This document shows, piece after piece, positions 4,514 to 18,836 of a stretch of DNA of 26,439 nucleotides. Every line of letters begins with the position of its first letter. The stretch's first letter is position 1. Source of the DNA: a virus; IMG/VR virus record IMGVR_UViG_3300043449_000435, positions 1-26,439 of that record, one strand, 5' to 3'. The notes under the pieces are model-generated. The model was not told the DNA's origin, ran no database searches, and was given only the letters and a program-made list of their open reading frames with translations. A program made the translations under genes and the position numbers.

Positions 4514-4552
4514 AATATTTAAGGTCTTATATCTCAATTTCCCCCACGGGTG

Positions 4553-5068: not shown

Positions 5069-6164
5069 CTGCTCGCATTATATAGTATAATGCCTTCCAT
5101 GGTGGTAGAGGTAGTGTCGCCGACGCTGTCCAAGTATGAGAGTGTGATACACTATATGAGTTATGCATATCACCAGCGCCGCTGCCATAACCGCCGTTTT
5201 CATGTTGATGTGTCCAACTGTTCGTTGGTACAGCAGATCCTGCTGTAATCGATCTTGTCGCGGTGCCACCGCTAGAAGCTAGAGTATATGTAGTATCTGC
5301 TCCTATAATGAATTTCCCACGAAGATTTGGAGTTGAGTTTGTTCCATCACAATTTCTCCAGCTTGCGGGCAAATCTATAAGAGCACCATAATAGGCAGCA
5401 ATCATATTTGCTTTTGGTATGGTTTGAGCCGTCGCGGCTACTGCTGTCAGTGCATGATATGGAGGAAGATTGACTGTGGTTGATACTCCAGTTTGAGCAT
5501 CGTGTGTGTGTCCGCCAACGCCATAATAATGATCTCCATATGGCGGATCTTCATTTACTGGGGTATAATTGGTGTGTGTGTGGGCACCAGCAGATGCTGT
5601 GGTTGTATTTGCTGTGGGGGTGAGGCTACCCAATGCTGCTCTTACATCATTCGCCACACCCTTAATGAAATTACCCTTCAGCGCAGTTTTTTCTGTATAT
5701 CCGGTTGGTATATTGCCCACAGTATCATTAAACCATAGAACTCCTCCATTTGGAATAGTGGTAGAAGATAGATTTTGAATATAAGCAAGACTATACGACG
5801 GTGGTGTAACATTGACATTGACTGCAACTGTGTGTGCATGACCAGCATGAACAAGTGGTGCGTAGCCAGCGCGGCCGCCGCCGGACCCACCACCCGTTGT
5901 GTTTGTGCTATGAGCACCTGCTGTTGACGTTGTTCCTGCTATAGGTACATCTTGATTCGATCCGCCTGTAGTATTATATAAGTATGTTTCATTTTCTGCT
6001 ATAATAAATTTATTAGATAGATCGATAGTACCGCCAGTTCCATTAGCCAAAGCCCATCCCGTAGGAATTGAAGCAACGGTTCCTTCGTATGATATTATTA
6101 ATCCCACAGGAACGTTGCCACCGGAAGCAACAGTTCCCATCATCATCTGAAGAATGCCAGTCAT
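5064..6164 (-). CDS. Tail fiber/tip protein with three tail-collar-like repeats
   Basis: Read from ATG 6164 the product is 366 residues. Three tandem modules (about 20-130, 139-243, 254-363) each have a proline/aromatic opening such as IPTGWALANG, IPTGYTEK or LPASWRNCDG. Each then shows a DLSNKFIIA, LKGNFIKG or LRGKFIIG strand, Gly/Thr/His-rich loops with HxH motifs (HAHTV, HTHTN, HTHDA, HQHE, HSHTW) and a closing PPSYSLAYI, PPYHALTAV or PPWKALYYIM. This is the pattern of phage tail-collar domains, as in T4 gp12, whose trimer binds metal through HxH. The protein is likely a receptor-contacting fiber tip. An ATG at 6194 would add 10 residues; I prefer 6164 because it overlaps the upstream stop (TAATG). 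Confidence 0.82.
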   Translation of the reverse strand: MTGILQMMMGTVASGGNVPVGLIISYEGTVASIPTGWALANGTGGTIDLSNKFIIAENETYLYNTTGGSNQDVPIAGTTSTAGAHSTNTTGGGSGGGRAGYAPLVHAGHAHTVAVNVNVTPPSYSLAYIQNLSSTTIPNGGVLWFNDTVGNIPTGYTEKTALKGNFIKGVANDVRAALGSLTPTANTTTASAGAHTHTNYTPVNEDPPYGDHYYGVGGHTHDAQTGVSTTVNLPPYHALTAVAATAQTIPKANMIAAYYGALIDLPASWRNCDGTNSTPNLRGKFIIGADTTYTLASSGGTATRSITAGSAVPTNSWTHQHENGGYGSGAGDMHNSYSVSHSHTWTASATLPLPPWKALYYIMRAA

Positions 6165-7273
6165 TATGTGAGCCCGGTTCCCACGATCAACCATGTTGTT
6201 GAGGTAAGTTTGCGAGCCGTAGCGACCCCATATTGTGCGAGAGAGCGAGAGCCAGTTGTGCCTGCGCCGGCAAGATACATCGTGTCAGTCGTGATTGCAA
6301 TGGTAACAACTTGAGAAGACATATTTGAAAACAAAATACACGTTCCGACTGGATATGGTACGTTCGCGTTGCTATCGATGGTGAACGTGCGAGCATTTGC
6401 GTCCGTCGAAGGATGATCTATTGAGTAACCGCTGTCTGCGAGGACCGTCGTGTAGTTCGCACTTTGTGAGTTAGGGGGAACCTCAAGAAATCCAATGGAT
6501 ATATCATTAAGTGTTAGTGTTCCGCGGACCTTTGTGGTTTTCCCGCCAGCACTACCGAGTACAGTATTACCAAATACAGTCAACGATGATGCCACGTTTG
6601 CGTGGCCAGATACTGTAACTAGGCCAGCAAAGGTCGTTGTCGCAGATGAGTTTGAACTATTGGTATTACCTGTAAGAACTAGGGCATTTTTTACTGTGGT
6701 CGCGCCTCGAATAGATACGGTGCTTGTTTGATCACCTATAGTAAATGTACCAACTCCAGTGTTCGCTACGAAGTTACCATTAATGACAGTTTTCTTGCCT
6801 GTATCGCCAAGAACTGTATTACCTGATACTAGAAACGATGTACTGATCGTTGCTCGACCGTTAGCACTCAATAGTCCATTAATGACAGTTTTCTTGCCTG
6901 TATCGCCAAGAACTGTATTACCTGATACTAGAAACGATGTACTGATCGTTGCTCGACCGTTAGCAGATAATAGACCAGTTACAATAGTGCGCTTACCAGC
7001 AGCACCATGAACGCTGTTGCCCGATACAATGAGATTGTTTGTGACAGTCAATACACCGTTGGCTTTAGATGATCCATTGAATATGGTAAGTTTACCAGCA
7101 GCACCTAAAACTGTATTACCAGTTGCTTTAAGAACATTATTAGCAGTAATTGTGTTTGCGTATAGACTTGAATTGTTGATAGCAAACTGACTCAATCGAT
7201 CAAACGCCTCATTTGACCGAATTCGCCAAGTATTAAATGTATTTGTAAGTGCTACGTTAGCGATTTTTGCCAT
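6164..7273 (-). CDS. Tail fiber protein with 33-residue repeats (fiber A)
   Basis: This is a 369-residue protein. Residues 1-45 (MAKIANVALTNTFNTWRIR onward) form a short anchor typical of fibers in aquatic T4-like phages. Then come repeats of about 33 residues with the core SGNTVLGxxGKKTVINGxxxANG, giving a repetitive beta shaft from about 50 to 265. Two neighbouring copies are identical at protein level and over 90 bp of DNA. The C-terminal part (about 270-369) contains TFTIDSNANVPYPVGTCI and TTGSRSLAQYGVATARKL, a C-terminal module widely seen in phage fibers. The anchor and repeats are nearly identical to those of the fiber at 18844-19905. An exact late promoter and AGGA precede the ATG at 7273. 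It probably attaches to the baseplate; the receptor is unknown. Confidence 0.85.
   Translation of the reverse strand: MAKIANVALTNTFNTWRIRSNEAFDRLSQFAINNSSLYANTITANNVLKATGNTVLGAAGKLTIFNGSSKANGVLTVTNNLIVSGNSVHGAAGKRTIVTGLLSANGRATISTSFLVSGNTVLGDTGKKTVINGLLSANGRATISTSFLVSGNTVLGDTGKKTVINGNFVANTGVGTFTIGDQTSTVSIRGATTVKNALVLTGNTNSSNSSATTTFAGLVTVSGHANVASSLTVFGNTVLGSAGGKTTKVRGTLTLNDISIGFLEVPPNSQSANYTTVLADSGYSIDHPSTDANARTFTIDSNANVPYPVGTCILFSNMSSQVVTIAITTDTMYLAGAGTTGSRSLAQYGVATARKLTSTTWLIVGTGLT
6777..6965. repeat. Perfect 90-bp direct repeat with 99-bp period inside fiber A
   Basis: Bases 6777-6866 are identical to 6876-6965; the 9-base spacer completes a 99-bp unit that encodes one 33-residue fiber repeat. 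Absence of synonymous differences shows a recent tandem duplication or gene-conversion event. A diverged third copy is at 19326 onward in the paralogous fiber gene. The repeat keeps frame, so changes in copy number would lengthen or shorten the fiber shaft. Confidence 0.95.
6952..7006. repeat. 55-bp segment identical to 19683-19737 in the paralogous fiber
   Basis: The 55 bases encode the GRxTxGTxL/SANG-type module edge and match 19683-19737 base for base. The offset between the copies (12,731) differs from that of the shared N-terminal block (12,632) by exactly 99 bp, one repeat unit. The two fibers have therefore gained or lost one module relative to each other. Confidence 0.9.
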
Positions 7274-7298: not shown

Positions 7299-8324
7299 CT
7301 ATTTATATTTAGTATCATACTTAGGTAACCTTAAATCGCCAGTACAGGCACAGAAATTTTTTGGGCATGTTAGATAATCATCTAACAATTCAAAGGTATC
7401 TAATCTACCAAGTTCAACTGATCTGCATATACCTCCATAAACCATGCCAGAATAAGATATACTAATTCCAGACGAGCCCGCCGCGCATTTCCAATTCAAA
7501 AATTGATTCTGTTTATTTATAATGATTTTTGACATATTTCCATGGATAGGCTCTACACTTTCATCTGAATATGTGACGAACGATGAGTCTATGAACTGTT
7601 TCCGGGTAGTTGGTTGAGTTTGATCTAATTCTAAATCCTGATGAAATGCTTCTGCTTGTCTAAGATTGAAAATTCCCTGTAGTGCTTTAATTAAATTGTT
7701 CTGAGATTCGTCATATTCATATGATGTATTATTGAAATTATTTTCTTCTTGAATGCCTAAATAACTTAGTACTTTTGGCTGTACATATTTTTTTAATCTA
7801 TCATCTAATTTCATGTATAAATCGACGGTACTGTGCCAGTTATTTGGATCACACATAAAATTAAAATTAAATTTTCTATTGGTTTCTTCAAACCATAAGC
7901 ATAAATCGTTAATCTTCTGTATGTTGGTAAATTCTGGATGTAGTGATATTGTTATATAATCCGGAAACGAACGAAGATTTTTCCACCAAGTCAATCCTCT
8001 AGAGCCGTTAGTCGTTGTTGATATTGATCCATATGAGTTGAGAGTTTCAATTAACATTTCATACATTGGATGTAATGTTGGTTCGCCACCAGATAGAGTC
8101 AGAAACAATTTTCTTCCCTTCAGGTGAACATTAATTAGTCTATCAATAAATGTTGTAATTTCTATATCTGTTGGATATCCATCTTTGATACCCTTAGCAT
8201 ATTTTCCTGAATGTAAATTTGGCAAACAATAATTACACTTAAAATTACATAGGTCGGTCAAGGTCCAATATATGTAAAGATTATCATTTGGTTTATCAAT
8301 TTTTATAATTTTCAAGGCTGCCAT
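7299..8324 (-). CDS. Radical SAM enzyme with C-terminal cysteine cluster
   Basis: This is a 341-residue protein. The radical SAM 4Fe-4S motif CNFKCNYC lies at 26-33 (C26, C30, C33), followed by LSGGEPTLHP (78-86) for SAM binding and TTTNGS in the next strand. The C-terminus has further Cys (WKCAAG, GGICRS, LTCPKNFCACTG), resembling a SPASM/twitch auxiliary Fe-S site found in enzymes that modify peptides or act on sugar or nucleotide substrates. The ATG at 8324 has AAGGG at about 9 bases. It is divergent from the other radical SAM gene across 59 bases, and its stop overlaps the late promoter of fiber A, so it ends exactly at the edge of the structural block. Substrate unknown; it is not a paralogue of the neighbour by obvious alignment. 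Confidence 0.85.
   Translation of the reverse strand: MAALKIIKIDKPNDNLYIYWTLTDLCNFKCNYCLPNLHSGKYAKGIKDGYPTDIEITTFIDRLINVHLKGRKLFLTLSGGEPTLHPMYEMLIETLNSYGSISTTTNGSRGLTWWKNLRSFPDYITISLHPEFTNIQKINDLCLWFEETNRKFNFNFMCDPNNWHSTVDLYMKLDDRLKKYVQPKVLSYLGIQEENNFNNTSYEYDESQNNLIKALQGIFNLRQAEAFHQDLELDQTQPTTRKQFIDSSFVTYSDESVEPIHGNMSKIIINKQNQFLNWKCAAGSSGISISYSGMVYGGICRSVELGRLDTFELLDDYLTCPKNFCACTGDLRLPKYDTKYK
7300..7307 (-). promoter_or_regulatory. T4-type late promoter upstream of fiber A
   Basis: This is an exact TATAAATA on the minus strand, 27 bases before the ATG at 7273, with AGGA close to the start. It overlaps the last codons of the upstream radical SAM gene, so the fiber can be transcribed late independently of the cargo. 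Confidence 0.8.
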
Positions 8325-8340
8325 TTAGATATCCCTTACT

Positions 8341-8370
8341 AGTATATATAAGTATATATAAGTATATATA
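8341..8370. repeat. Three perfect 10-bp repeats in the divergent radical SAM intergenic region
   Basis: AGTATATATA occurs three times head to tail. On the minus strand each copy contains TATACT, close to a sigma70 -10 hexamer, toward the gene at 8324. On the plus strand the array runs directly into ATAGGAG, the ribosome site of the gene at 8384. One repeat per DNA turn in a 59-base divergent spacer looks regulatory: stacked -10 boxes or a helical-phase protein binding site. No TATAAATA is present here, unlike the structural genes. Confidence 0.6.
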
Positions 8371-8383
8371 ATAGGAGTTCAAT

Positions 8384-9799
8384 ATGGCATTTGATTTACA
8401 TAGTTTTTGCCCAGAAGCCTGGTCGCAGTTAGAAATAGATGGAGCTGGCGATTATAAACTATGTTGCCTAGCTAATTTAAATAAAGATTACGGATACGCC
8501 ATTGATGAAAATGGACTAGTCATGAATGTCCTAACTCACACGATGGCTGATGCTCTGAATAGCGTAACACATAAAGAACATAGAAAAGAATTACGAGAAA
8601 ATATACAACCAACCCGTTGCAGAAGTTGTTATGATTCTGAGATTGCGATGAAGGCAGCATTCAATAGAACTTCTGTTGGTAAGCCAAATGATATAACTGC
8701 TTTTGACGAGGTTGATCCAGCTAATACTGGATGGAGTAAGCGCATGAGCGTTTTAACCAAAAATAAAAAAAACGCATACGTGACGATTGACCAGGCCGAT
8801 AAAATTACTATGCTCGATGGTAGTGTCACTGAAACTAAAATTGTTAGTTTGGATTTGAGATTTGGAAATCTTTGTAATTATAAATGTATCATGTGTAGTC
8901 CAGTTCATAGTAATTTATGGTATGATGACTGGTTTTCTATTGACCTCAACGGCGTAAATAAATATTTGGATAAAGATAAAACTATATTTTCAAAGGGAGC
9001 CAACAAAGCATATGAGTTGAAAAAAGATGAATACGGCCGGGCTAGAATGGAAGGAACCGTTGCTTGGTGGGAATCTGATATTTGGTGGAAGCGATTCGAA
9101 GAAGTATTACCGACTCTAGGCATGATATATTTTACTGGTGGGGAGCCAATGTTAGTTCCCGCAATGCTAGAATGCTTAGATAGAGTTATCGCGTCAGGTC
9201 GCGCCGGACAAATTAGGTTAAGATATGATACAAATCTAAGCGTAATTAATCCTAAACTTATTGATAAATGGAAGCATTTCCGTGGATTGAGTTTGTGTTT
9301 GAGTATGGATGATATCGATGAAAGATATAATCTGATTCGTTTTCCAGGTAACTACGATAATTTTGTACGAAATATTAAAATTCTTCAGAAAAATAATGTT
9401 CCTATACACAAAACAACATGTTGCATAGGAATTGCGTCAATATATACAATGAAGAGAGTTCTTGACGCATCAATCGATCTTGGTATTAATACTACATTCA
9501 GATTTTTAGAGGGTCCCACTTGGCTTGATATTAGAGCATTACCAAAAGCTGCTAAATATGAAATAATAGTAAATCTGTTGAAGATGGACGGTTCGCGTGT
9601 TCATAAAATGTGGTATAATTCAGAAGTCGAGATTCTAAGAAAATACTTTGATGCAGAAGATAGAGCTAAAACTACTAACTTCGTTAGAATTATGACCATA
9701 CTAGACCAAAGTAGAAATACAGATTGGAAAACTACATTACCTGATGTATATGACTTGTTAAATAGACATTGCCCAGAAGCATTTAAAACCAATATTTGA
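8384..9799 (+). CDS. Radical SAM protein with N-terminal SPASM/twitch-like region
   Basis: This is a 471-residue protein. An N-terminal cysteine region (SFCPEAW at 7-13, LCCLA at 26-30, RCRSC at 78-82) resembles an auxiliary Fe-S (twitch/SPASM) module. It precedes the radical SAM core, which has CNYKCIMC at 164-171 and FTGGEPML at 250-257. Proteins of this architecture are frequently annotated in aquatic phages as twitch-domain radical SAM proteins. The core is followed by an alpha/beta barrel with LRYDTNLSV and SLCLSMDDIDERY. The ATG at 8384 has a strong AGGAG. The enzyme should cleave SAM to a 5'-deoxyadenosyl radical and modify an unknown substrate; neighbours do not show an obvious precursor peptide except possibly the small gene at 9844. 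Confidence 0.85.
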   Translation: MAFDLHSFCPEAWSQLEIDGAGDYKLCCLANLNKDYGYAIDENGLVMNVLTHTMADALNSVTHKEHRKELRENIQPTRCRSCYDSEIAMKAAFNRTSVGKPNDITAFDEVDPANTGWSKRMSVLTKNKKNAYVTIDQADKITMLDGSVTETKIVSLDLRFGNLCNYKCIMCSPVHSNLWYDDWFSIDLNGVNKYLDKDKTIFSKGANKAYELKKDEYGRARMEGTVAWWESDIWWKRFEEVLPTLGMIYFTGGEPMLVPAMLECLDRVIASGRAGQIRLRYDTNLSVINPKLIDKWKHFRGLSLCLSMDDIDERYNLIRFPGNYDNFVRNIKILQKNNVPIHKTTCCIGIASIYTMKRVLDASIDLGINTTFRFLEGPTWLDIRALPKAAKYEIIVNLLKMDGSRVHKMWYNSEVEILRKYFDAEDRAKTTNFVRIMTILDQSRNTDWKTTLPDVYDLLNRHCPEAFKTNI

Positions 9800-9811
9800 T
9801 ATTTATAAATA
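9800..9811. promoter_or_regulatory. Two-way late promoter match TATTTATAAATA
   Basis: The plus strand carries TATAAATA at 9804-9811, about 33 bases before the ATG at 9844. The overlapping TATTTATA at 9800-9807 gives the same element on the minus strand. The plus-strand copy is well placed for the small gene downstream. The minus-strand copy would read antisense into the radical SAM gene and may be a by-product of the palindrome. Confidence 0.6.
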
Positions 9812-9843
9812 GACCATAATTTATACAGTAGAGGATGCAGACC

Positions 9844-10143
9844 ATGGCTCACGTAGTAAAATATACATTGATAAAACCATCTCCGGATATTGAGTCTTTT
9901 ATAAATGATCCAGACTTTCGCGCCGCGAGACAAAGCCTTTTTATTGATAGTGGGCGATTATCGGAAGAAAGAATTCAAGTATCTGATACGGAACTAACTA
10001 TTATAAGGACATTCCGTGACGCTCTCAGTGCGGCAATTTATAAAGAATTTTGTGAGACTTTTAATGGTGGCCGAAACCGAGAGCGCCTACAATCTCATAT
10101 TGCCAAAAATAACATAACAGTTAAAAAAGAAAGAATTAATTAG
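9844..10143 (+). CDS. Small conserved-looking protein, unknown function
   Basis: The start chosen is ATG 9844 (MAHVVKYTLIKPSP) because GAGG lies 9 bases upstream; the in-frame ATG at 9835 overlaps that site. The product is 99 residues with a beta strand at the start (VVKYTLIKP), a central TELTIIRTFRDALSAAIYKEFCE segment and a basic, hydrophilic tail. No signal, membrane segment or known motif is visible. It has its own late-promoter match and converges with the DUF2061 gene, sharing bases of both stop codons. It could be a structural or accessory protein; a radical SAM substrate is conceivable given the neighbour, but the single Cys and lack of a leader/core pattern do not support a classical RiPP precursor. 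Confidence 0.6.
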   Translation: MAHVVKYTLIKPSPDIESFINDPDFRAARQSLFIDSGRLSEERIQVSDTELTIIRTFRDALSAAIYKEFCETFNGGRNRERLQSHIAKNNITVKKERIN

Positions 10144-10150
10144 CTAATTA
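10137..10150. terminator. Perfect 14-bp palindrome at a convergent gene junction
   Basis: TAATTAGCTAATTA is a perfect palindrome containing the stop codons of both convergent genes (TAG on plus, TAA on minus). It could act as a weak two-way terminator or simply reflect paired stop codons. It is AT-rich with no loop and no adjoining T-run, so termination is uncertain. Confidence 0.35.
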
Positions 10151-10574
10151 TCTTTCTCCATCTAATTGAATTCCATACTCGTTCATGGAAGTAATATACT
10201 GCAATATTGAGAAATGTTGCTATTGTCGCAAACGTGAGTGCGGTCTGCCATGATCCCGTGGTAAAGTATGGAATAGCAAAGTTGTTGATGGTGATTAGTA
10301 TTCTCCAGGTAACTGATTTGCTGATTGTTCTAGGATGCCCCTCTTTGAACATCAAAGAATCCTTTGGTGTTCTATTCCACTGAAAATAATTCCAAATTCG
10401 TTCGTGTGACCAAAATAAAATCATATTGATCAGCGTAGCAAATGTTGCAATCTGAATGCCCATCATCAAACTTCCTGTGACAATGAATCCATTCAGTATG
10501 TGACTAAGCGTAAAGCATACTCGAACAGTGAGCGTTTTAGTAATCGATCTAATATGATCTTCTGCGTATTTCAT
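10140..10574 (-). CDS. Double DUF2061 membrane protein
   Basis: This 144-residue protein contains two copies of the DUF2061 pattern. Unit one (about 8-65) has RSITKTLTVRVCFTLSHIL, FIVTGS and SHERIWNYF. Unit two (about 82-141) has RTISKSVTWRILITINNF, YFTTGSWQTAL and FHERVWNSIRW. Each unit gives about two hydrophobic helices, so four membrane segments in all. DUF2061 proteins are small bacterial inner-membrane proteins of unknown role, in some genomes found next to sulfate-assimilation genes (from memory). The ATG overlaps the stop of the PP-loop gene (ATGA), so the pair is translationally coupled, and this is the last gene of the operon. A membrane partner or transporter for the product of the PP-loop enzyme is an inference. 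Confidence 0.85.
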   Translation of the reverse strand: MKYAEDHIRSITKTLTVRVCFTLSHILNGFIVTGSLMMGIQIATFATLINMILFWSHERIWNYFQWNRTPKDSLMFKEGHPRTISKSVTWRILITINNFAIPYFTTGSWQTALTFATIATFLNIAVYYFHERVWNSIRWRKIIS

Positions 10575-11770
10575 AGTTTATACCTCATTTTATCAATTTT
10601 ATAGTCATGGCGCATAGTGATAAGGCCGTCTGGTTGACCATTTATCTCGTTTTTATACACAAATGGCGTTGCGTTTCTTGCGATGTAGTCAAGGCCTTCT
10701 TTCCACAAAGAATGTTCTTGTGTACCTTCACATCCTTTGATAAACCAAGTGTCAAATTCGCTATGCCAATCAGACAAGGCTTTATCAGATTGAAACCAGT
10801 TATCATTCCACGAACTATATATCAAACTACGAAGAACTCTTTCATGAACTAGTCGATATACAGCGTTAGACAAATAATCAGACATAAACACTTTGCGGGC
10901 TTTTGGAGTTAATTCGAGCCATTTCTTGATTGTGTGGGCTTGTTTGCATAATAAATCGCAAGCATCTGGACTCCAATAAAAGAACTCAACTGTGGTATTA
11001 GAATATTCTCCAAGATAATCTTCAACGGCAGCAATATTCGCAGCACGATCTGCGAATCTGATATAAAGATCATTGCTAACATGATCGATGAATATTCGTG
11101 GTTTTTCAACACCCAAAACAATGCCGATAGTCTTGTCTTTGTCGATCAGCTTCTTCATATCAGCAAAGTAGAAGTAATTAAATCTTGTCACATTAAGTGG
11201 GTTCAGTCCCTCTTTCTTTTTCAGGACCCAACCAGCATCGCCGTGTTTTGAGAATGCATCGAATAGATGATCAGTCAAATCAAATATTTTTATTTTTGTA
11301 GCAGGAATCATCTTTTGAATTTCAGCTAATCTTGGTATTGTTTGGAGAGCATGTTCAGATGAGGCCGCAAATTCGGGTTGCTTATTATTTGGATTAATAT
11401 TCATAAAAGATTTTGCGCCCTTTTCCATAGTGTTGACTATAAGTTCATCAATATGGAGTTTTTGTCGAATGAATGCCATAACAACATTGTGGCTATCGGC
11501 GCCGCCACTATAACTAATTACTATGTAATCATATTTTTCGCGTAGTTCTCTGGCCCGCCTATCGTATAGTTGGTCTAGTGTTTCTTCTGGTTCATTTGCC
11601 CAATTATATTTACCAAATACATCTTCATTGAAATGCCATTTGACATAATTACTAGCAGCACTTAGCGGCGTCGTCAATTTATTCATGGCATGAGTTGCAA
11701 ATAAACACGCTAAAATTTTAGACTCAAACTCAATGCCACCAACAGTATAATAACCAAGTGTTTTATTCAT
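10571..11770 (-). CDS. PP-loop ATP pyrophosphatase-type enzyme (SGGADS)
   Basis: This is a 399-residue protein. An N-terminal extension of about 80 residues precedes the strand-loop DYIVISYSGGADSHN (81-95), the PP-loop of N-type ATP pyrophosphatases (the SGGxDS family, including PAPS reductase, QueC and asparagine synthetase C-domain relatives). Members adenylate a substrate carboxyl or carbonyl oxygen, or handle adenylyl-sulfate, releasing PPi. The remaining 300 residues include HLFDAFSKHGDAGW, GIVLGVEKPRIF and a Trp/Tyr-rich C-terminus with no motif I can name. The ATG overlaps the end of the upstream flavoprotein gene by 8 bases, and the stop overlaps the DUF2061 start. The PAPS-reductase-like or amidating role is open: no ECGxH motif of classical PAPS reductase is seen. 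Confidence 0.8.
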   Translation of the reverse strand: MNKTLGYYTVGGIEFESKILACLFATHAMNKLTTPLSAASNYVKWHFNEDVFGKYNWANEPEETLDQLYDRRARELREKYDYIVISYSGGADSHNVVMAFIRQKLHIDELIVNTMEKGAKSFMNINPNNKQPEFAASSEHALQTIPRLAEIQKMIPATKIKIFDLTDHLFDAFSKHGDAGWVLKKKEGLNPLNVTRFNYFYFADMKKLIDKDKTIGIVLGVEKPRIFIDHVSNDLYIRFADRAANIAAVEDYLGEYSNTTVEFFYWSPDACDLLCKQAHTIKKWLELTPKARKVFMSDYLSNAVYRLVHERVLRSLIYSSWNDNWFQSDKALSDWHSEFDTWFIKGCEGTQEHSLWKEGLDYIARNATPFVYKNEINGQPDGLITMRHDYKIDKMRYKL

Positions 11771-12626
11771 TTCTTAGCCTTTTTGCGATTTCAGTAAGAG
11801 AAAGAACTTCTGTTATATTATCTATGCCTACTCCGGCAAAAATGTGTCCATCTTTACCTTTAGAATAAATACCTGTGGCCAAAGACGCGTTTCTATTTAA
11901 TATATCGTCGTTGAAAACATATTTGTCTGTAAAATTCGGGTATACAATATCACTAAACCGAATTGAATTTAATTTCATATTATTCCCACGATCAAATTTA
12001 TATAAATTTTTTGATGATTCTCGGCACATTTTGTCTTTTATTTTTTGATCTAAGCCACTTTCTTTTGAAAAAGCAAACAATGTTCCTATGCCTATGGCTG
12101 AAGCACCAAGGCCCATATAATATGATACTTGCTCAGAAGTAGAAATACCCCCAGAAACTATGAATGGAACTTTGTGTGAATAAAAATCAATCAATTTGGA
12201 TAGTGAAGTATCAGAAACAGCTCCAGCACCATCAGGACCCTTCAAAATTACATAGCTAGGAAGATTATATAAACGTGTACCTTGTGTTTTAGAGTAAACA
12301 ATAAATCCGTATTTTTTAAGTTTACTCATAAGTTCATATTCTTGCGGTGCTCCTGTTTCTAATATATATTCCATATGTTCAATTTTATATTTTGATATGA
12401 TCCCAGCCCTAATCATCATTGCAATTTCGGTGTATGTACCACTAACAATAAGAGAATCACAATTGCCAATGCGATCATTATAGTATTTTAGTTCAGCATC
12501 AATCTTATCCATATCGCGTCTAGACATAAAAACGGAAAACGTTGGAGTGATACCAGCCCTAAAGCAATGTACGGCAAATTTTGAATCGGAAACTCCATTC
12601 ATGCCAAGAGCAATTAATTTAATCAT
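11763..12626 (-). CDS. Nitronate monooxygenase-like FMN TIM-barrel protein
   Basis: I chose ATG 12626 (MIKLIALGMNG), which overlaps the previous stop by 8 bases, over a TTG at 12650. The product is 287 residues. The fold signature is strongest in the second half: PFIVSGGISTSEQVSYY (154-170) and LGASAIGIGTLFAFSKES (173-190). This is the FMN-phosphate-binding pattern of the nitronate monooxygenase / 2-nitropropane dioxygenase and FabK group. The catalytic-loop region, EGGGHRG in class I enzymes, reads here KGPDGAGAVSD (129-139) and has no His, so nitronate oxidation as such is doubtful. It lies between the TctC-like and PP-loop genes in a coupled operon. It may oxidise or reduce a pathway intermediate; other FMN barrel families cannot be excluded. 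Confidence 0.75.
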   Translation of the reverse strand: MIKLIALGMNGVSDSKFAVHCFRAGITPTFSVFMSRRDMDKIDAELKYYNDRIGNCDSLIVSGTYTEIAMMIRAGIISKYKIEHMEYILETGAPQEYELMSKLKKYGFIVYSKTQGTRLYNLPSYVILKGPDGAGAVSDTSLSKLIDFYSHKVPFIVSGGISTSEQVSYYMGLGASAIGIGTLFAFSKESGLDQKIKDKMCRESSKNLYKFDRGNNMKLNSIRFSDIVYPNFTDKYVFNDDILNRNASLATGIYSKGKDGHIFAGVGIDNITEVLSLTEIAKRLRNE

Positions 12627-13629
12627 TATATCTAGATAAAAATTGTTCAACTTCGGGTGACACTGAAAAATTCTTTACAAGATCCTCCGCTTCTTTTCCA
12701 ATCTTAAATGACGAGAACGCAGAGTATCCAATGGGATTTTCTAATATTTTTGGATCTGTTGACATTTTTTCTATGATTTTATGAATCTTCTTAGCTTCGG
12801 CCGGATCATAGTTCTTGAATTCCCTGAATTGTATCATTTGAGTTGATAAATATTGGGCAAGATCGCTCAATGTGATGTAACTTTTCCATAAAATGCCTAA
12901 GTTTTCGGGATTTTTTCCCTCTACAGATTTATACAATTTACGCAATGATCTATCGCCTGGATATGTTGGAGTATCCAAATGCCATAGTGGTTTTACAAGA
13001 TTTGTGTCAACATATCTTTCGGTAAAATCAGGATCATTTAATTGTCCCTGCATAATATCCGTTTCTCCGCGCAGGGTTGCTAATCTCGCTTCGTCCGTGT
13101 TTTTATATCCGCCAATTGCCCTATATTTAATATTGAGAACATCTAATCCGATTCGTTCTAATGCATTTGCTAAATTTAGATTCACCGGTAACCCTATATG
13201 TAGAATTGCTGACGAATTCTGTAAAGTTTTGATATCATTTGATTTATCTATCGGAACCCACAAAGCAATTAATCTACCAGATGTGAAATATATTTCTGAT
13301 GAGTTTAAGTATTTCGTATCTAATAGGTTTGAAATTTTCGAATGGTGAACTATTTGATTGTGAACCCCAAATACTAGATCATTGCTGTCAGAATTATTGT
13401 ATTGTGCCACTGGGCCAGCCAGTCCAGACGCACTCGTGCTAGGAATAACGATGATTCTATCTATTCCGTCCATATTTTCCTTAATGTATTGTCCAACTAA
13501 CCTAGCTATCTGGGCAGGCCTTGATGTAGGTCCAAGATTCACATAAAACTTAATATCCTTGGCAATAGCATCGCCCGCGCCGATAATACATAGCAATATG
13601 GTTAATATCATTGTATATTTTTTAATCAT
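12619..13629 (-). CDS. TctC/Bug-like periplasmic solute-binding protein
   Basis: This is a 336-residue protein. Signal peptide: MIKK, hydrophobic core MILTILLCIIG, cleavage after AIA (about residue 23). The mature part follows the tripartite tricarboxylate transporter receptor pattern: an early KFYVNLGPTSRPAQIARLV, the SASGLAGPVAQYNN and NDLVFGVHNQ region, and later GGYKNTDEARLATLRGETDI, typical of the second ligand-binding lobe. Length is usual for the family. Family members bind carboxylates or other small metabolites. Here no TctA/TctB permease is present, so it is either an orphan binder serving a host transporter or recruited for another job. The ATG at 13629 has AGGAAGAG at good spacing and begins two bases after the ligase stop. 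A signal-peptide-bearing binding protein inside a phage enzymatic operon is unusual. Confidence 0.75.
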   Translation of the reverse strand: MIKKYTMILTILLCIIGAGDAIAKDIKFYVNLGPTSRPAQIARLVGQYIKENMDGIDRIIVIPSTSASGLAGPVAQYNNSDSNDLVFGVHNQIVHHSKISNLLDTKYLNSSEIYFTSGRLIALWVPIDKSNDIKTLQNSSAILHIGLPVNLNLANALERIGLDVLNIKYRAIGGYKNTDEARLATLRGETDIMQGQLNDPDFTERYVDTNLVKPLWHLDTPTYPGDRSLRKLYKSVEGKNPENLGILWKSYITLSDLAQYLSTQMIQFREFKNYDPAEAKKIHKIIEKMSTDPKILENPIGYSAFSSFKIGKEAEDLVKNFSVSPEVEQFLSRYND

Positions 13630-13630
13630 G

Positions 13631-14905
13631 TCATACTCTTCCTATGTATTGTACAATTCCATTATCGTTTAGTATGAACTCGTCTCCAGTTCTTATGTAG
13701 ATATCATCTACATATTGAACATTATATATATCTTGTGCGTAGTCAAATCTATACTCTTTATTTACTGCCAATTCATATGTGTTTTTGCCTGCAATGGAGA
13801 TTAATTTCCCTGCCCCATTTTTCAACGTATCAATATGAAATCCTGCAATATGAATTTTGTCATGGATAGACGAATCTTGTGGAATATGCCACGAAACTGA
13901 GGAATCTGATGCCCCATATATATTATTTATGGTGATGTTCTTCTGAGCATTTGCAATAATTTCATATGCGTATAATGAATTTTTGTTAGGAGTTATTAAT
14001 CTGATTGAGATATTGGTCGTGACTCTAGAAAATTCTAAAATCATCTCATCAAGTTTTCCAGAATATGATGCCCAGAATGGATTTTCTTTTACGTATTCAT
14101 CATACAGTGGATGGGTCGGTAAAATATCTGAATAGATTGTTAAGTTTGTTACTCCATAATCGATAATATTATTCACGATATATTTCCAATTTACTTTTTT
14201 ATGATCATTGTCTAATATGACCGTGAAATTTTTAAGCATGAGATGTGCGGAGGTTAAATTACCAAAAGACAATACTGGAGTACCGATTATATATAAAATA
14301 TTATCTGACTCTGCTTCTGATATGTCCTGATTAATTCCGGGAGTAAAATTAATAGTTCGATTAATTTTATCAAATGATTTCCCTCTTGTTCGTTTCATAA
14401 TCTTTTTTTGCCCGGTTGTACCGGAAGTAAAATTAATAGAAATTGGATCATCCAGAGTAGGAAAATCGGTTATATCATTAGTCGGCGAAATCCTTGAGTA
14501 GTGATTAACTGTAAAATCGTTGATATTATATTTTATATCAAGTCCCCCTTGATCTATGATATATGCTGCGTCGTGCCCTCTTTGATGATCTATGATATTT
14601 TTCTTAAAATTTACTCCAAGTTGATTATGTTTGAGCTGAAGATATTGGCTCTTGAGGGATAAAAATGGAAATCCAGCCATAATACACGCCATTTCCGCTA
14701 ATATTCTATTGCGATTATTGGCGCACGTTATAGCAACACAATCCCCCAGATTAATACCAATGGCTAATAATGATTTTGCGATATTACCAGACAAGAATTT
14801 TGCTTTACCTCTACTGACATATTCACCATTGGTCATTCTAATAATAACACAGTTTTCATCCAATGATGCCATTGTCTTATTAAATACATCAGGTTCTTGC
14901 GCCAT
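13631..14905 (-). CDS. ANL-superfamily adenylating enzyme lacking the C-terminal lid domain
   Basis: This is a 424-residue protein. The A3 phosphate loop NFTSGTTGQKKIMKR lies at 158-172, an A5-type NNIYGASDSS at 327-336 and an A7-type YIRTGDEF at 403-410, followed by VQYIGR at 418-423. The protein stops one residue after the GR at the hinge (A8). The mobile C-terminal domain of about 100 residues with the A10 lysine, present in acyl-CoA synthetases and NRPS A domains, is therefore missing. The N-terminal core can still bind ATP and carboxylate. The next gene starts two bases later in another frame with its own signal peptide, so the lid is not simply frameshifted there. ATG 14905 has AGAGGAAA upstream. 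It likely activates a carboxylic acid as an acyl-AMP; the acceptor is unknown. Confidence 0.85.
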   Translation of the reverse strand: MAQEPDVFNKTMASLDENCVIIRMTNGEYVSRGKAKFLSGNIAKSLLAIGINLGDCVAITCANNRNRILAEMACIMAGFPFLSLKSQYLQLKHNQLGVNFKKNIIDHQRGHDAAYIIDQGGLDIKYNINDFTVNHYSRISPTNDITDFPTLDDPISINFTSGTTGQKKIMKRTRGKSFDKINRTINFTPGINQDISEAESDNILYIIGTPVLSFGNLTSAHLMLKNFTVILDNDHKKVNWKYIVNNIIDYGVTNLTIYSDILPTHPLYDEYVKENPFWASYSGKLDEMILEFSRVTTNISIRLITPNKNSLYAYEIIANAQKNITINNIYGASDSSVSWHIPQDSSIHDKIHIAGFHIDTLKNGAGKLISIAGKNTYELAVNKEYRFDYAQDIYNVQYVDDIYIRTGDEFILNDNGIVQYIGRV

Positions 14906-14918
14906 TCTATAGTTTCCT

Positions 14919-15710
14919 CTATTGTTTCATTCTTTTTAAGAATTCAATTTTATTATAAGATTTGTACATCGCAACATCATGTGGCGATGTTCTTTTTAAA
15001 ATTTCATTAAATATTTCGTACACTCCTCTATTATATGCGTAATTTATTTTTGGCCGCCAATTTAGGCCATATAACTTAGATTTAAACTCTTGTGTGTCCG
15101 TAGTATTTGTTGCTTTTATCATAGCATAACACAACTCTCTTGTATATAAGAAGAATTGTATATTTTTATCATTTATAATACTAGCATAAAAATCCCATTC
15201 GCAACATAACACCGAATCCAGTGGTTTATTATCATCAATAAAATGATCGCCTGTTACTAATATTCCATCTCTGTCTTTAACGTATTCAGATAACAAAAAT
15301 GTTGTGATGGCATAGATTGCCCTTCCCCTAAACATTTTATTCACTCTCAACATACCACTTACAAGATCATGATTGCTATACTCTATTGTGATTGGAGTAA
15401 CTGCTAGAGTTTTACATACACGAAATGCATATTGCCGTTCAAGTTCGTTCCCTTCACATATAGCAATTATGGGCGTAACTTGTATGCCAAGCCGACAAAA
15501 AGTTGTCAATACATATTCAGAATCTAAGCCGCCACTTAAGGCAACATATATATTTGGTGACACATTTGATATTAAATTTGCTGTATAATTGGAAGCAGAT
15601 TCAAAAGACATTTCGTCAAACTCTTTTGAAACAATAGAAACTTTAAAATCTAAATTGTGAGTTTTAGCTCTCTCTAAGAGATTATGACTAATCCAATCTT
15701 CATAAACCAT
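14919..15710 (-). CDS. PP-loop enzyme, asparagine-synthetase-like (SGGLDS)
   Basis: I start at ATG 15710 (MVYEDWISHN), which has GGAGAG about 7 bases upstream; that site contains the alternative ATG at 15725. The product is 263 residues. The PP-loop strand NIYVALSGGLDSEYVL is at 53-68, as in the synthetase domain of class B asparagine synthetases and related amide/carbapenam-type enzymes. It continues with PIIAICEGNELERQYAF and ILVTGDHFIDD. There is no N-terminal glutaminase domain, so ammonia would come from elsewhere or the reaction differs. It is the first gene of a six-gene minus-strand operon (gaps of 13, 1, -8, -8 and -4 bases). It is clearly different in sequence from the SGGADS protein of the same operon. 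Confidence 0.78.
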   Translation of the reverse strand: MVYEDWISHNLLERAKTHNLDFKVSIVSKEFDEMSFESASNYTANLISNVSPNIYVALSGGLDSEYVLTTFCRLGIQVTPIIAICEGNELERQYAFRVCKTLAVTPITIEYSNHDLVSGMLRVNKMFRGRAIYAITTFLLSEYVKDRDGILVTGDHFIDDNKPLDSVLCCEWDFYASIINDKNIQFFLYTRELCYAMIKATNTTDTQEFKSKLYGLNWRPKINYAYNRGVYEIFNEILKRTSPHDVAMYKSYNKIEFLKRMKQ

Positions 15711-15729
15711 TATATCGCTCTCCATTCTG

Positions 15730-15752
15730 ATTATATATAATTATATATATAA
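15730..15752. promoter_or_regulatory. Divergent AT-rich promoter region of two cargo operons
   Basis: Two adjoining perfect palindromes, TTATATATAA (15731-15740) and TTATATATATAA (15741-15752), lie between the PP-loop gene (minus) and the fatty-acid-hydroxylase-like gene (plus). TATAAT is present on the plus strand at 15736-15741 and on the minus strand at 15740-15745. Both are placed to give short leaders that keep the ribosome sites. No good TTGACA is seen and no TATAAATA, so an early or host-type promoter is suggested rather than a late one. Confidence 0.5.
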
Positions 15753-15777
15753 CATAGCGAGATGATTTGAGGTGACT

Positions 15778-16209
15778 ATGATTTTGTTGTTTTTTTTGAG
15801 TTGGACTTTTCTTCTTTATTTTATCCATAGAATTGCGCATGGATTTAAATGGTCGTGTCATATGGATCATCATAAATTTATCTTAGACCATTCCGTTACT
15901 TCTTGGAAATGGAATAATTTATTATTATTCAATGATACTTGGCTAAGTACTCTAGACTTATGGGTAACAGAGGTTCTTCCAACTATAGTATTTTGTATGA
16001 TAACTGGTATTTGGGAAATTGCCGTCTTTTACTATCTCTGGGCATCTCTCATTCAAGAAATCGTAGAGCATAATCCAAACTTCAATATCTTTCCATTCTT
16101 AACTAGTGGAAGATGGCATCTTCTGCATCATACAGATGATAAAGTTAATTTTGGATTGTTTATTCCCGTATGGGATTTGATGTTTGATACATATAGGAGA
16201 TTATCATGA
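15778..16209 (+). CDS. Fatty acid hydroxylase / sterol desaturase-family membrane enzyme
   Basis: Start ATG 15778 is chosen over GTG 15772 because GAGGTG lies just upstream and contains that GTG. The product is 143 residues. The His motifs of the membrane di-iron hydroxylase superfamily are complete: HRIAH (17-21), HMDHH (28-32), His98 in EHNPN and HLLHH (114-118). They are followed by the usual NFG...PVWDLMFDTYRR end. Hydrophobic segments lie at 1-16 and 66-96. It is short, nearer to CrtZ-type carotenoid hydroxylases than to full sterol desaturases. It should place a hydroxyl or double bond on a lipid-like substrate in the inner membrane. It overlaps the next gene by ATGA, so it is co-translated with two 2-oxoglutarate oxygenases. 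Confidence 0.83.
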   Translation: MILLFFLSWTFLLYFIHRIAHGFKWSCHMDHHKFILDHSVTSWKWNNLLLFNDTWLSTLDLWVTEVLPTIVFCMITGIWEIAVFYYLWASLIQEIVEHNPNFNIFPFLTSGRWHLLHHTDDKVNFGLFIPVWDLMFDTYRRLS

Positions 16210-16898
16210 AAACTCACGAATTATTTCCCACTGTAGTATGCTCTTGGGACTATCCAGAACAAGATGAATTTGCCGCAACATTCTATGCCAATATATTTAA
16301 GTATATGACACCCGATGGATTCTCTAGTGAATTCACTGGTCATGTTAATATTCATCACGAAGAATCTTTTGGTCATCTATTTCTGTTTGCCACACAATGT
16401 CTAAAGCAGTATATTTCGCAGTTAAATGTTGATCCAGAAATGTTTGATTTGAACATAGTTAAAACTTGGATGAATATAACCAAAGATCGCCAAACTCCTA
16501 TTCATAGTCATGCCGATGCTAACTATTCATTTACGTATTATATTAATATCCCAAAAGATATTCCAAAGCCACTTAGATTCTACAATAATGAAGCATCCAC
16601 ACATAACGCAAACGATGGTTATTATTGTATGAGTAAATTTAACTCATCTGAATGGAATAACTATAACTCATATACTTGGCAATTTGAGCCACAAGAAGGT
16701 CAACTATTTGTGTTTCCCGCAAATCTTGTTCATGACACAGTTGGCGCAGTTCTCGGTAAGGAATCTGGAACTAAAACAGTCGATGAATTGAAACAAAGTC
16801 GCATCTGCATCGCTGGAGATTTTCTATTAACATATAAGGTGCCGACCGCGAAGGCGACCGGGCTACAGCCAGTATCAAACTGGAGAATATTTCAATGA
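16206..16898 (+). CDS. 2-oxoglutarate/Fe(II)-dependent oxygenase, T4-like phage type
   Basis: This is a 230-residue protein. It begins KTHELFPTVVCSWDYPE, as in a family of putative 2OG-Fe(II) oxygenases common in aquatic T4-like phages. The iron ligands read as HADA (H102, D104) and a distal His in NLVHDTVG (H176); Arg199 in QSRICIAGDF is the likely 2-oxoglutarate anchor. The jelly-roll core strands FTYYINIPK and QLFVFPANL are visible. The ATG overlaps the previous stop (ATGA) with AGGAG upstream, and its own stop overlaps the next start the same way. The reaction would be hydroxylation coupled to 2OG decarboxylation; the substrate is unknown. Confidence 0.85.
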   Translation: MKTHELFPTVVCSWDYPEQDEFAATFYANIFKYMTPDGFSSEFTGHVNIHHEESFGHLFLFATQCLKQYISQLNVDPEMFDLNIVKTWMNITKDRQTPIHSHADANYSFTYYINIPKDIPKPLRFYNNEASTHNANDGYYCMSKFNSSEWNNYNSYTWQFEPQEGQLFVFPANLVHDTVGAVLGKESGTKTVDELKQSRICIAGDFLLTYKVPTAKATGLQPVSNWRIFQ

Positions 16899-17512
16899 TG
16901 TATAATTATCTTTCGAATAATCCACACGAGAGGTCGCGAGTAACTTATCCCTATGTATATTGGGATGGATTGTTTACCGATGATGAACTGGATAAGATTA
17001 TCGAAATATCTGAGCGACAGGAACTAGTCCCTGGTAAAACTGGAGGCGCTGGAGATGGTAATATATCTGAAATCCGGGTAAGTAAAATCGCATTCGTTAA
17101 TTATAATCCAGATACTCAATGGATTTATGACAAACTCAACTGGGTAATTAGTACAGTAAATGATAGGTACTACAATTTTAATTTGAATGGCTACTCGACG
17201 TATCAATATGGGACATACGATTCTGATCACGCCGCGCAATATAATTGGCATATGGATACGTTCTTTGGGCCAATCGTTGAAAAATTTTCCGCTGAACACG
17301 AGACCCGTAAATTATCATTATCGTTGTTGTTAAATGATAATTTTGAAGGTGGGGAATTTCAAATGAATCTAGGAGAGACCCCGGAAACAATAGAATTCAA
17401 AAAGGGGAGAATTCTATTGTTTCCGTCATTCCTAACGCATAGAGTCGCCCGCGTCACATCTGGCATCAGGAAATCTCTAGTAGTATGGGTTACTGGACCA
17501 AAGTTTGTTTAA
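16895..17512 (+). CDS. PKHD-type 2-oxoglutarate/Fe(II) oxygenase (prolyl 4-hydroxylase fold)
   Basis: This is a 205-residue protein. The core is NWHMDTFFG (HxD ligands H119 and D121), LSLSLLLNDNFEGGEFQ (141-156), FPSFLTHRVARV (third ligand His182) and SGIRKSLVVWVTGP (2OG-binding Arg192). This is the PKHD/P4Hc pattern of small bacterial and phage hydroxylases. ATG 16895 overlaps the previous stop, with GGAG 9 bases upstream; ATG 16898 is also possible. Near its 3' end lies a perfect 17-bp inverted repeat. The gene converges on the minus-strand fiber accessory gene, sharing 4 bases at the stops. It is not a close duplicate of the upstream oxygenase. Confidence 0.87.
   Translation: MMYNYLSNNPHERSRVTYPYVYWDGLFTDDELDKIIEISERQELVPGKTGGAGDGNISEIRVSKIAFVNYNPDTQWIYDKLNWVISTVNDRYYNFNLNGYSTYQYGTYDSDHAAQYNWHMDTFFGPIVEKFSAEHETRKLSLSLLLNDNFEGGEFQMNLGETPETIEFKKGRILLFPSFLTHRVARVTSGIRKSLVVWVTGPKFV
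17382..17425. repeat. Perfect 17-bp inverted repeat with 10-base loop inside the PKHD gene
   Basis: The left arm CGGAAACAATAGAATTC (17382-17398) is the exact reverse complement of the right arm at 17409-17425; the loop is AAAAAGGGGA. It lies wholly within coding sequence (residues near PETIEFKKGRILLFPS). In RNA it would form a very stable stem in the plus transcript and in any antisense transcript from the fiber side. No T-run follows, so a classical terminator is not indicated. Confidence 0.9.
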
Positions 17513-17967
17513 TCTTTAGTTCTAATAGCCGCAAGCAACTTATCAATTTCTGACATGAACGCTTCTGATTCTAGTTTAGAGGCTGTTGTCGATGCCACAG
17601 GTGTTGGTGATACAACTTCTGGTTCCACATATTCTACTTCGAATGTTTTACCAATATTTGCATTAATATCAGCCATAGTTGTATCAATTTCCGGGTTGTC
17701 AACATCATCGAGCAATTTTAGATAAGCGGCAGGCGCACAAGAAATGATGTAATCGTGTAATGCCTGCCCACTCAAAGACGGAGTTTGGTACATCGTAAGA
17801 TTATAATCTGTCGTGCATCTTACCGGAGTTCCATCATCATTTCTTGCGATTGGTCCAGCAAATTTATCTATTGCGAAAAAATCTTCGCCATGCGTGTCGC
17901 TAAAATACCGAACTACCATAGAATGATTAGCTTCGTCTTTTGAGATAATTTTATATTTGATGATCAT
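17509..17967 (-). CDS. Small protein downstream of the glycine-rich adhesin, probable fiber accessory
   Basis: The start is ATG 17967 (MIIKYKIISKDEANHSMVV), 2 bases after the adhesin stop with AGGA upstream; a longer open frame to 18096 is only the Arg-rich shadow of the glycine-rich gene. The product is 152 residues: an N-terminal beta-rich half (VVRYFSDTHGEDFFAIDKF), a middle with LHDYIISCAPAAYLKLLDD, a Pro/Val/Thr linker (about 118-130) and a C-terminal helix ending LLAAIRTKD. I do not recognise the family. Its position behind an adhesin mirrors the small gene at 4553-5044 behind the collar fiber, so a chaperone or assembly role is likely but inferred. Confidence 0.65.
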   Translation of the reverse strand: MIIKYKIISKDEANHSMVVRYFSDTHGEDFFAIDKFAGPIARNDDGTPVRCTTDYNLTMYQTPSLSGQALHDYIISCAPAAYLKLLDDVDNPEIDTTMADINANIGKTFEVEYVEPEVVSPTPVASTTASKLESEAFMSEIDKLLAAIRTKD

Positions 17968-17969
17968 GG

Positions 17970-18836
17970 TTATGATTTCCTGCCAGTTAATGTTCCTGTT
18001 GCGACCCATGTTATACTTGTATTTCCGACGACAGCGTTTCCGCGAACACCAGTCGAGCCTGCTGCTCCACCCGCCCCACCTGGACTTGCTCCCCATCCCG
18101 GCGAAGGCGGCGAGGTGCCGGGCGATCCTGTTGCGCCCGAATTACCTCCGGCGCCGCCCGATCCGGTTGCGGCGCCAGCCCCGCCGGCGCCACCGATTGT
18201 CGCGCCGCCGCTCGTGCCTGCTACTGCTGTTCCAGAACTTTGAGATCCAAATGGTCCTCCGGCACCGCCCGGAGTTCCTGCTCCGCCGCCGCCGCCGCCT
18301 CCCGCATAATAATCTGGTCCTGCCGGAGTAGCTTCACCCTTTGAGCCGCTAATATAACCACCAGTATTATAAGATCCGCCGCCGCCGCCGCCGCCTCCGC
18401 CGCCGGGTCCACCCGCACCGCCGCTAATTGTACCTGTATTTTTTGCGACAATAGTCACACCAGAAATTATGTCAGCTTTAAATGCTGATCCACCTTGAGG
18501 TCCAAGTGATCCAACGGATCCTATTCCTGGCGCACCAATTGTTGGTGTGCCCGCAGGACAGCCTCTGCCACCTGCGCCACCCTGACCAGTTAGTGTTACT
18601 GTTGTGCCCGTTATCGTGCTTGTGTTCTCAACATAAATGAAATTACCAGGAGCCCAGCCCGTACCTGTGCGAAATGCGGGTACTGTATTAGCCGAAGCTG
18701 TCAGTGCTGCATTATTAAAGAACAACACATTACCGGGGTATGATGGAGACCCTGCTGTGGTATACAAATTCACATCGCTTGTGGGCGATGAAATCGTAAC
18801 GACTTTTGTTGGTCTAACTGCTATTGCTAGAAACAT
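17970..18836 (-). CDS. Glycine-rich tail tip adhesin, gp38-like
   Basis: This is a 288-residue protein. The N-terminal part (1-100, MFLAIAVRPTKVVTISSP onward) is beta-rich and contains VLFFNNAALTASANT. From about 98 to 275 it is dominated by GGxGG tracts, including a run of ten glycines near 147-156 and several separate blocks such as GGAGGAGAATGSGGAGG. These alternate with short non-glycine loops (IVAKNTGTIS, KADIISGVT). Such an arrangement resembles Salmonella phage S16 gp38-type adhesins, where stacked polyglycine II helices display variable loops that bind the receptor. The DNA is markedly GC-rich compared with its surroundings because of GGN codons. It sits right after a tail fiber gene, as gp38 does after gp37. 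Similarity is by composition and context, not by alignment. Confidence 0.75.
   Translation of the reverse strand: MFLAIAVRPTKVVTISSPTSDVNLYTTAGSPSYPGNVLFFNNAALTASANTVPAFRTGTGWAPGNFIYVENTSTITGTTVTLTGQGGAGGRGCPAGTPTIGAPGIGSVGSLGPQGGSAFKADIISGVTIVAKNTGTISGGAGGPGGGGGGGGGGSYNTGGYISGSKGEATPAGPDYYAGGGGGGGAGTPGGAGGPFGSQSSGTAVAGTSGGATIGGAGGAGAATGSGGAGGNSGATGSPGTSPPSPGWGASPGGAGGAAGSTGVRGNAVVGNTSITWVATGTLTGRKS

Follow-up and report, generated by a model that had tools for sequence, protein, structure and literature searches.

The 26,439-bp IMG/VR record IMGVR_UViG_3300043449_000435, analyzed here over its full length (the window), is a contig of a T4-like phage in which twelve intact cargo genes at 7299-17512 are bracketed by two tail fiber genes. 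These genes encode two PP-loop enzymes (PP1 and PP2), a small di-iron membrane hydroxylase (FAH), two 2-oxoglutarate (2OG)-Fe(II) oxygenases (2OG3 and 2OG5), a secreted TctC-type solute-binding protein (SBP), two radical S-adenosylmethionine (SAM) enzymes (rSAM1 and rSAM2), a flavin mononucleotide (FMN) barrel oxidoreductase (NMO), a DUF2061 membrane protein, an ANL adenylating enzyme and a 102-aa protein of unassigned function. The block is very probably one version of a recurrent phage enzyme module whose members are mixed and matched. The original prediction had treated the cargo as a single pathway and proposed looking for its co-occurrence elsewhere. Ten of the twelve families do recur together, in varying combinations, in dozens of uncultured viruses, including NMO, rSAM1, rSAM2 and DUF2061 around independently found NMO loci; the count stands at ten because ANL and the 102-aa protein lack homologues in the 321 loci compared. 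The families are thus linked as a block, but members are gained, lost and swapped freely, and the single-pathway idea is only partly supported.

Recurrence and exchange of the module

Loci (designated L plus a number) were collected by a scan with the fiber N-terminus, blind to cargo (79 loci), and by scans with PP2 (65 loci), FAH (134 viral relatives, 80 kept) and, independently, NMO (11 loci). More than half of the fiber-found loci with enough sequence past the fiber carry, in the same slot, a shared gene order or a variant of it: adhesin, chaperone, PP1S, FAH, PP2, PP1 and a TctC-type protein, followed on the opposite strand by 2OG3, 2OG5 and a second TctC-type protein, and then by gp13. 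The PP2 and FAH scans add many loci that have no recognized T4 genes.

Linkage within the block is tight. A PP-loop gene lies no more than ten genes from FAH in 87 of 90 distinct FAH loci, and among 26 dereplicated fiber-found loci FAH associates with PP2 (p=5e-5), PP2 with PP1 (p=1.6e-6) and FAH with SBP (p=2e-5), shared ancestry being ignored in these values. Of 52 PP1L/QueC-like genes, 45 adjoin a binding-protein gene, compared with 18.2 +/- 3.2 (maximum 29) in 2000 within-module permutations, and several loci show the two genes inverted or duplicated together. NMO, DUF2061, rSAM1 and rSAM2 recur with the module as well. PP-loop genes lie near NMO in 9 of the 11 viral NMO loci, and NMO adjoins FAH in L216 and L226. 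DUF2061 sits between FAH and PP1 in L220 and adjoins PP1 in L220, L234-L237 and L241. rSAM1 lies between FAH and PP2 in L214, with relatives by FAH or PP-loop genes in L214, L241 and L242. Close relatives of rSAM2 stand beside NMO-PP1 in L234, L235 and L241, where a DUF2061-PP1-NMO-rSAM2 block neighbors PP2, and in L234 and L241 also FAH; L241 has rSAM1 as well, bringing seven of the window's families into one block. The wider rSAM1 superfamily shows no such tie, the module being present in 0 of 69 more distant loci. A set private to the window had been suggested by single-sequence scans, which gave no viral relatives for PP1, ANL or NMO; alignment-based scans overturned this for PP1, PP2, FAH, NMO and rSAM1.

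Module genes pass from one phage lineage to another, and the module is exchanged piece by piece. The PP1 tree places the window sequence together with L220, L216, L226 and L129 (100/100), all without recognized T4 genes, and at least six changes of the T4 label are required; the window's 2OG enzymes are closest to those of T4-like module contigs. A chimeric assembly was considered since PP1 and FAH group with non-T4 loci, but the surrounding gene order matches many independent T4-like contigs and exchange is therefore likelier. Elsewhere, a Rieske oxygenase occupies the FAH slot (L101), and other slots hold amidoligase_2, QueC-like PP-loop enzymes, B12-type radical SAM enzymes, ATP-grasp enzymes or fatty acid (FA) desaturases, the last in L182 and L216. 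A full TctABC set is present in L126 (TctA 4.8e-125) and TctA in L096. Two module loci have further genes of their own: L216 encodes a TRAP-type DctP binding protein (13817-14749, minus strand; PF03480, 1.7e-42) whose longest frame lacks a signal peptide, and in L220 (3-1598) a DAHP-synthase family gene (KdsA-like, 1.1e-30) and a glycosyltransferase-like gene directly precede FAH-DUF2061-PP1.

Outside these loci the families are scarce at the sensitivity used. When 50,697 phage records were searched by tblastn at 1e-5, nothing matched the window's PP1, ANL and rSAM2 or relatives' PP2, PP1 and SBPa, and a PP2 profile scan of 84,980 prokaryote genomes found no relative. FAH occurred in those genomes only in two contigs of one metagenome-assembled genome, from a Nitrososphaerales archaeon (L150 and L151); both also have PP2, and L151 has PP1L, and they are probably misbinned phage DNA. 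Because these scans work from short peptide patterns, they can overlook distant relatives.

Predicted functions and genomic setting

The enzyme classes named in the original prediction hold up, with one of them, the ANL enzyme, reduced to a partial protein. All listed open reading frames (ORFs) were verified at their coordinates, and the radical SAM, DUF2061, NMO, ANL, FAH and 2OG proteins were placed in families with Pfam, PHROGs and NCBIfam. PP1 (10571-11770, minus strand) and PP2 (14919-15725, minus strand) gave no significant Pfam match as single sequences; their assignment comes from an intact SGGxDS motif and from AlphaFold2 models, compared with solved folds by Foldseek and VIA, the rankings being among the families listed. 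The PP1 model (predicted local distance difference test, pLDDT, 85.7; predicted template modeling score, pTM, 0.89) comes nearest to asparagine synthetases (Z 10.5-11) and next to beta-lactam synthetase (9.5-9.9), with NAD synthetase at most 8.0 and GMP synthetase and LarE below 8. In the PP2 model (pLDDT 92.6), 243-248 of the 268 residues align with asparagine synthetase (Z 15-15.8); beta-lactam synthetase scores 14.5, and LarE and NAD synthetase score about 11. The PP-loop motif begins about 87 residues from the start of PP1 and about 63 from that of PP2, and the N-terminal glutaminase domain is missing in both, for which reason we do not name them asparagine synthetases. Judged by the models, both would work like the synthetase half of that enzyme.

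FAH (15772-16209, plus strand) scores 49.1 bits against PF04116 FA_hydroxylase (cut-off 31; 1e-12), with all histidine motifs present and invariant. Downstream on the same strand lie 2OG5 (16206-16898; 2OG_Oxy_5, 1.1e-9) and 2OG3 (16895-17512; 2OG_Oxy_3, 7.5e-13), 59% and 52% identical to module relatives and both with an intact HxD...H motif. The binding protein (12619-13629, minus strand) has no Pfam match alone and is a diverged TctC type: it aligns with the phage family SBPb (hhalign 97.9%, E 4.6e-13), SBPb matches a second phage family, SBPa, and both match PF03401 (TctC). A hydrophobic, signal-peptide-like N-terminus was found by a heuristic test in the window protein and in all complete SBPa and SBPb members.

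Both radical SAM enzymes retain CxxxCxxC, as read from the sequence. rSAM1 (7299-8324, minus strand; PF04055, 2e-10) has conserved C-terminal cysteines, and its match to viperin, 42.9 bits, lies below the curated cut-off of 180; rSAM2 (8384-9799, plus strand; PF04055, 5e-10) is a twitch/SPASM enzyme (SPASM; NF033640, 4.7e-81). The DUF2061 protein (10140-10574, minus strand) matches PF09834 at 4e-27, and NMO (11763-12650, minus strand; PF03060, 4.8e-8) is NMO/FabK-like, its best solved relative being FabK (2.9e-6). ANL (13631-14905, minus strand) belongs to the AMP-binding family (PF00501, 1.3e-9) but has only the N-terminal domain: the ORF ends at the hinge (RTGD..GR), so the usual C-terminal domain with its A10 lysine is absent, and the next gene starts at once. 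No viral relative of ANL was found in scans of viral sequences and of the 321 loci, and the 102-aa protein (9835-10143, plus strand; TATAAATA upstream) has a homologue in 0 of 321; as far as these comparisons reach, both appear private to the window contig. By sequence, at the cut-offs used, ANL, FAH and the SBPb profile have no relative of solved structure.

The window's flanks are those of a T4-like phage. The cargo slot runs between a very large gp10-like protein (20210-26401) and gp13 (3313-4056) with gp14, gp15 and gp16 beside it; among 2041 phage records with a match to gp13, the best are Stenotrophomonas phage DLP6 (53%) and Caulobacter phage Cr30 (49%). Fiber 1 on the left (6164-7273, minus strand) and fiber 2 on the right (18844-19905, minus strand) are 95% identical across the N-terminal 61 aa and 54% identical across 275 aa, in agreement with the island between paralogous tail fibers described originally. 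One correction to that description concerns the right border, where two genes intervene between cargo and fiber 2 and belong with the latter: a chaperone-like gene (17509-18096, minus strand), putatively serving fiber or adhesin and syntenic with the module in relatives, and a gene for a glycine-rich protein, adhesin-like by composition (17970-18836, minus strand), whose family is also syntenic with the module. A neighboring glycine-rich gene of the relative L071 is Gly_rich_2 (PF21722, 7.7e-20). The window's gp10-like protein is 98.9% identical to that of L006 (3391-9690), whereas the adjoining fiber 2 is 65.6% identical, a comparison pointing to fiber turnover among otherwise near-identical phages. 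Elsewhere in the window, a class 3 lipase gene (734-1522, minus strand; PF01764, 1.9e-21) lies between gp15 and gp16 and has no relative among 230 loci checked, and a small secreted-looking protein (4151-4537, minus strand), without homologue in the loci, is encoded between the fiber-associated genes and gp13.

The module is likely expressed late, since TATAAATA, the T4 late-promoter motif, precedes many fiber genes, and in relatives the module genes read on from the fiber, trailing it closely on the same strand. The motif lies upstream of 44 of 74 fiber genes, fiber 1 of the window among them, and of 12 of 38 gp13 genes, compared with 0.5% of random stretches, and is rare before module genes themselves (12/280). 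AT-rich spacers with TATATATA, neither assigned to a strand, are common to both divergent gene pairs of the window. The one between rSAM1 and rSAM2 (8325-8383) contains three TATATATAAG units and is a possible bidirectional promoter; the one between PP2 and FAH (15726-15771) carries palindromic TATATATA elements.

What the module may make

Amide-bond synthesis is probably the core chemistry of the module, with real room for doubt. By sequence and structure comparison its core consists of PP1 and PP2, FAH, 2OG oxygenases and periplasmic binding proteins of the TctC type, with radical SAM, FMN, DUF2061, desaturase, Rieske, amidoligase or ATP-grasp enzymes as exchangeable partners. The binding protein would hand an organic acid to the host tricarboxylate transporter, some phages supplying their own TctAB; the PP-loop enzymes would activate a carboxylate with ATP and couple it to an amine; and at the membrane the product may be oxidized or modified in other ways by FAH, by the oxygenases and by the radical SAM enzymes. 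A lipid-like or surface-linked amide made late in this way could remodel the host envelope, masking receptors or excluding superinfection, or could decorate the fiber. The PP-loop fold suggests carboxylate activation and amide formation, TctC and TctAB suggest organic-acid uptake, and FAH, the desaturases and the FabK-like NMO suggest membrane oxidation of a lipid-like substrate. A surface purpose is suggested by the position in a host-recognition cluster and by the same slot in a sister clade, where L039 (12294-15647) has no module and carries three glycosyltransferase-like genes, one Asp/Arg-hydroxylase-like gene and one methyltransferase-like gene (named by eye).

Taken from module through amide chemistry to a late surface or envelope purpose, this account is our preferred one and yet somewhat more apt to fail than to hold; envelope remodeling as the purpose is a tentative suggestion. 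The natural-product or lipid/surface-modification block of the original prediction is supported, by co-occurrence, as a biosynthetic block, and the modification of envelope or virion is something we can but propose. Several observations weigh against the account. Non-lipids too are substrates of the FA_hydroxylase and desaturase families, and no TctA or TctB, desaturase or glycosyltransferase is present in the 26-kb window. In 57 of 90 FAH loci there is no recognized binding protein within ten genes. ANL lacks its C-terminal domain, and the 102-aa gene finds no place in it. Finally, fiber association is weak outside T4-like phages (8/60 vs 0/42), and within them it may reflect shared ancestry, amounting to two changes on the tree. 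A more specific version, which we consider rather doubtful, would make the module a phage-restricted pathway with its own substrate uptake, present in phages of several lineages. Carboxylates would be delivered by TctC-type proteins, each paired with a particular PP-loop amide synthetase, and would be joined, then hydroxylated and desaturated, to give a tag that is lipid-like or bound to the adhesin; swaps of the synthetase-binding protein pairs would be moves in a host-recognition arms race.

The main rival, unlikely in our estimation, places the target in the cytoplasm: the enzymes would amidate, cross-link or hydroxylate the glycine-rich adhesin or the fiber and so alter receptor binding. 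Module genes of T4-like relatives do follow fiber, adhesin and chaperone on the same strand, and the association of glycine-rich adhesin with PP-loop genes is perfect in the 26 dereplicated loci (17/0/0/9, p=3e-7). In the non-T4 locus L096 the adhesin is flanked by PP1S and PP2, in L101 it adjoins PP1S, and L234 and L241 end beside a fiber-like gene. However, a single replacement could account for the association, and in other phages it is weak at the counts just given. A cytoplasmic protein target is also hard to square with secreted binding proteins, with TctAB and desaturases, and with a hydroxylase in the membrane. The adhesin link, at first taken as the main clue, was set aside for possible shared ancestry and for its weakness outside T4-like phages.

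Ordinary auxiliary metabolism, in which organic acids or nitrogen are taken up and used without a dedicated product and clustering merely reflects the T4-like cargo slot, seems to us improbable. Published work describes the slot as a hypervariable island that carries cargo (PMC7029224), Pelagibacter phage Mosig carries 2OG, heme oxygenase and other genes in it, and TctA has been noted once on a phage contig (PMC4164917). Yet the same families are linked in phages without recognized T4 genes and in genomic surroundings of other kinds, PP-loop genes pair with binding-protein genes more often than chance would give, and PP2 and FAH are almost without cellular relatives at the sensitivity used, unlike borrowed host metabolism. 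In Mosig (L005), annotated 2OG oxygenases and ferrochelatase-like, heme oxygenase and PcyA genes occupy 10880-15965, the same slot before gp13.

Modification of DNA, RNA or nucleotides to evade defense is very improbable: queuosine and thiolation pathways typically use PP-loop and radical SAM enzymes, and some relatives have QueC-like PP-loops, but both PP-loop models are closer to asparagine and beta-lactam synthetases than to LarE, TtuA or NAD synthetase, the genes sit with structural genes in the company of secreted and membrane proteins, and a PADLOC search yielded only weak radical SAM-viperin similarity and a generic 2OG model. A defense function was set aside on the same PADLOC result.

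If the preferred account is true, uncultured phages carry a phage-specific, amide-forming and membrane-oxidizing pathway that has its own solute-binding proteins and moves between lineages. Phage-encoded biosynthesis would then reach past nucleotides, photosynthesis and lipopolysaccharide (LPS) glycosylation, new ligases of the AsnB type and new di-iron hydroxylases could be drawn from the module, and the abundance of non-tail enzymes in host-recognition islands would gain a testable handle.

Relation to known systems

PP1 and PP2 resemble asparagine synthetase B and the beta-lactam and carbapenam synthetases in the fold of the synthetase domain and in SGGxDS, but differ in having no N-terminal glutaminase domain and at 8-13% identity. 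The combination of AsnB-fold synthetases with 2OG oxygenases, and in some relatives with B12-type radical SAM enzymes, is what we presume to be a likeness to carbapenem- and clavulanate-type clusters; among the window's cargo genes no CarB-type crotonase was found by Pfam and no other carbapenem signature genes were recognized. The likeness to TctABC lies in the PF03401 matches of SBPa and SBPb and in the complete set of L126, whereas in T4-like phages binding proteins alone were seen and the window protein falls below Pfam detection. A literature search returned no paper tying asparagine synthetases to desaturases in phages.

The closest described counterpart is the host-recognition cluster of pelagimyophages and cyanomyophages, which holds tail fibers, LPS glycosyltransferases and radical SAM cassettes and is believed to modify the surface of the host against coinfection (PMC7029224). 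The window agrees with it in place, from the large baseplate-side gene to the neck genes, and in its fibers, variable cargo and radical SAM genes. CsgG-like and curlin-like genes (by eye) lie downstream of the module in L015 (13437-15659) and L078, as in pelagimyophages (PMC7029224). Asparagine did not turn up when the text of that paper was searched. LPS glycosyltransferases, conspicuous in pelagimyophages although not required by the cluster's definition, are absent from the window by Pfam and PHROGs; where the published cluster stresses these enzymes, the window has synthetases, a di-iron hydroxylase and TctC proteins (PMC7029224). The location is therefore not new, the slot being the known host-recognition island of T4-like phages, but the enzyme set apparently is, and the module it represents is real, recurrent and, it appears, previously undescribed.

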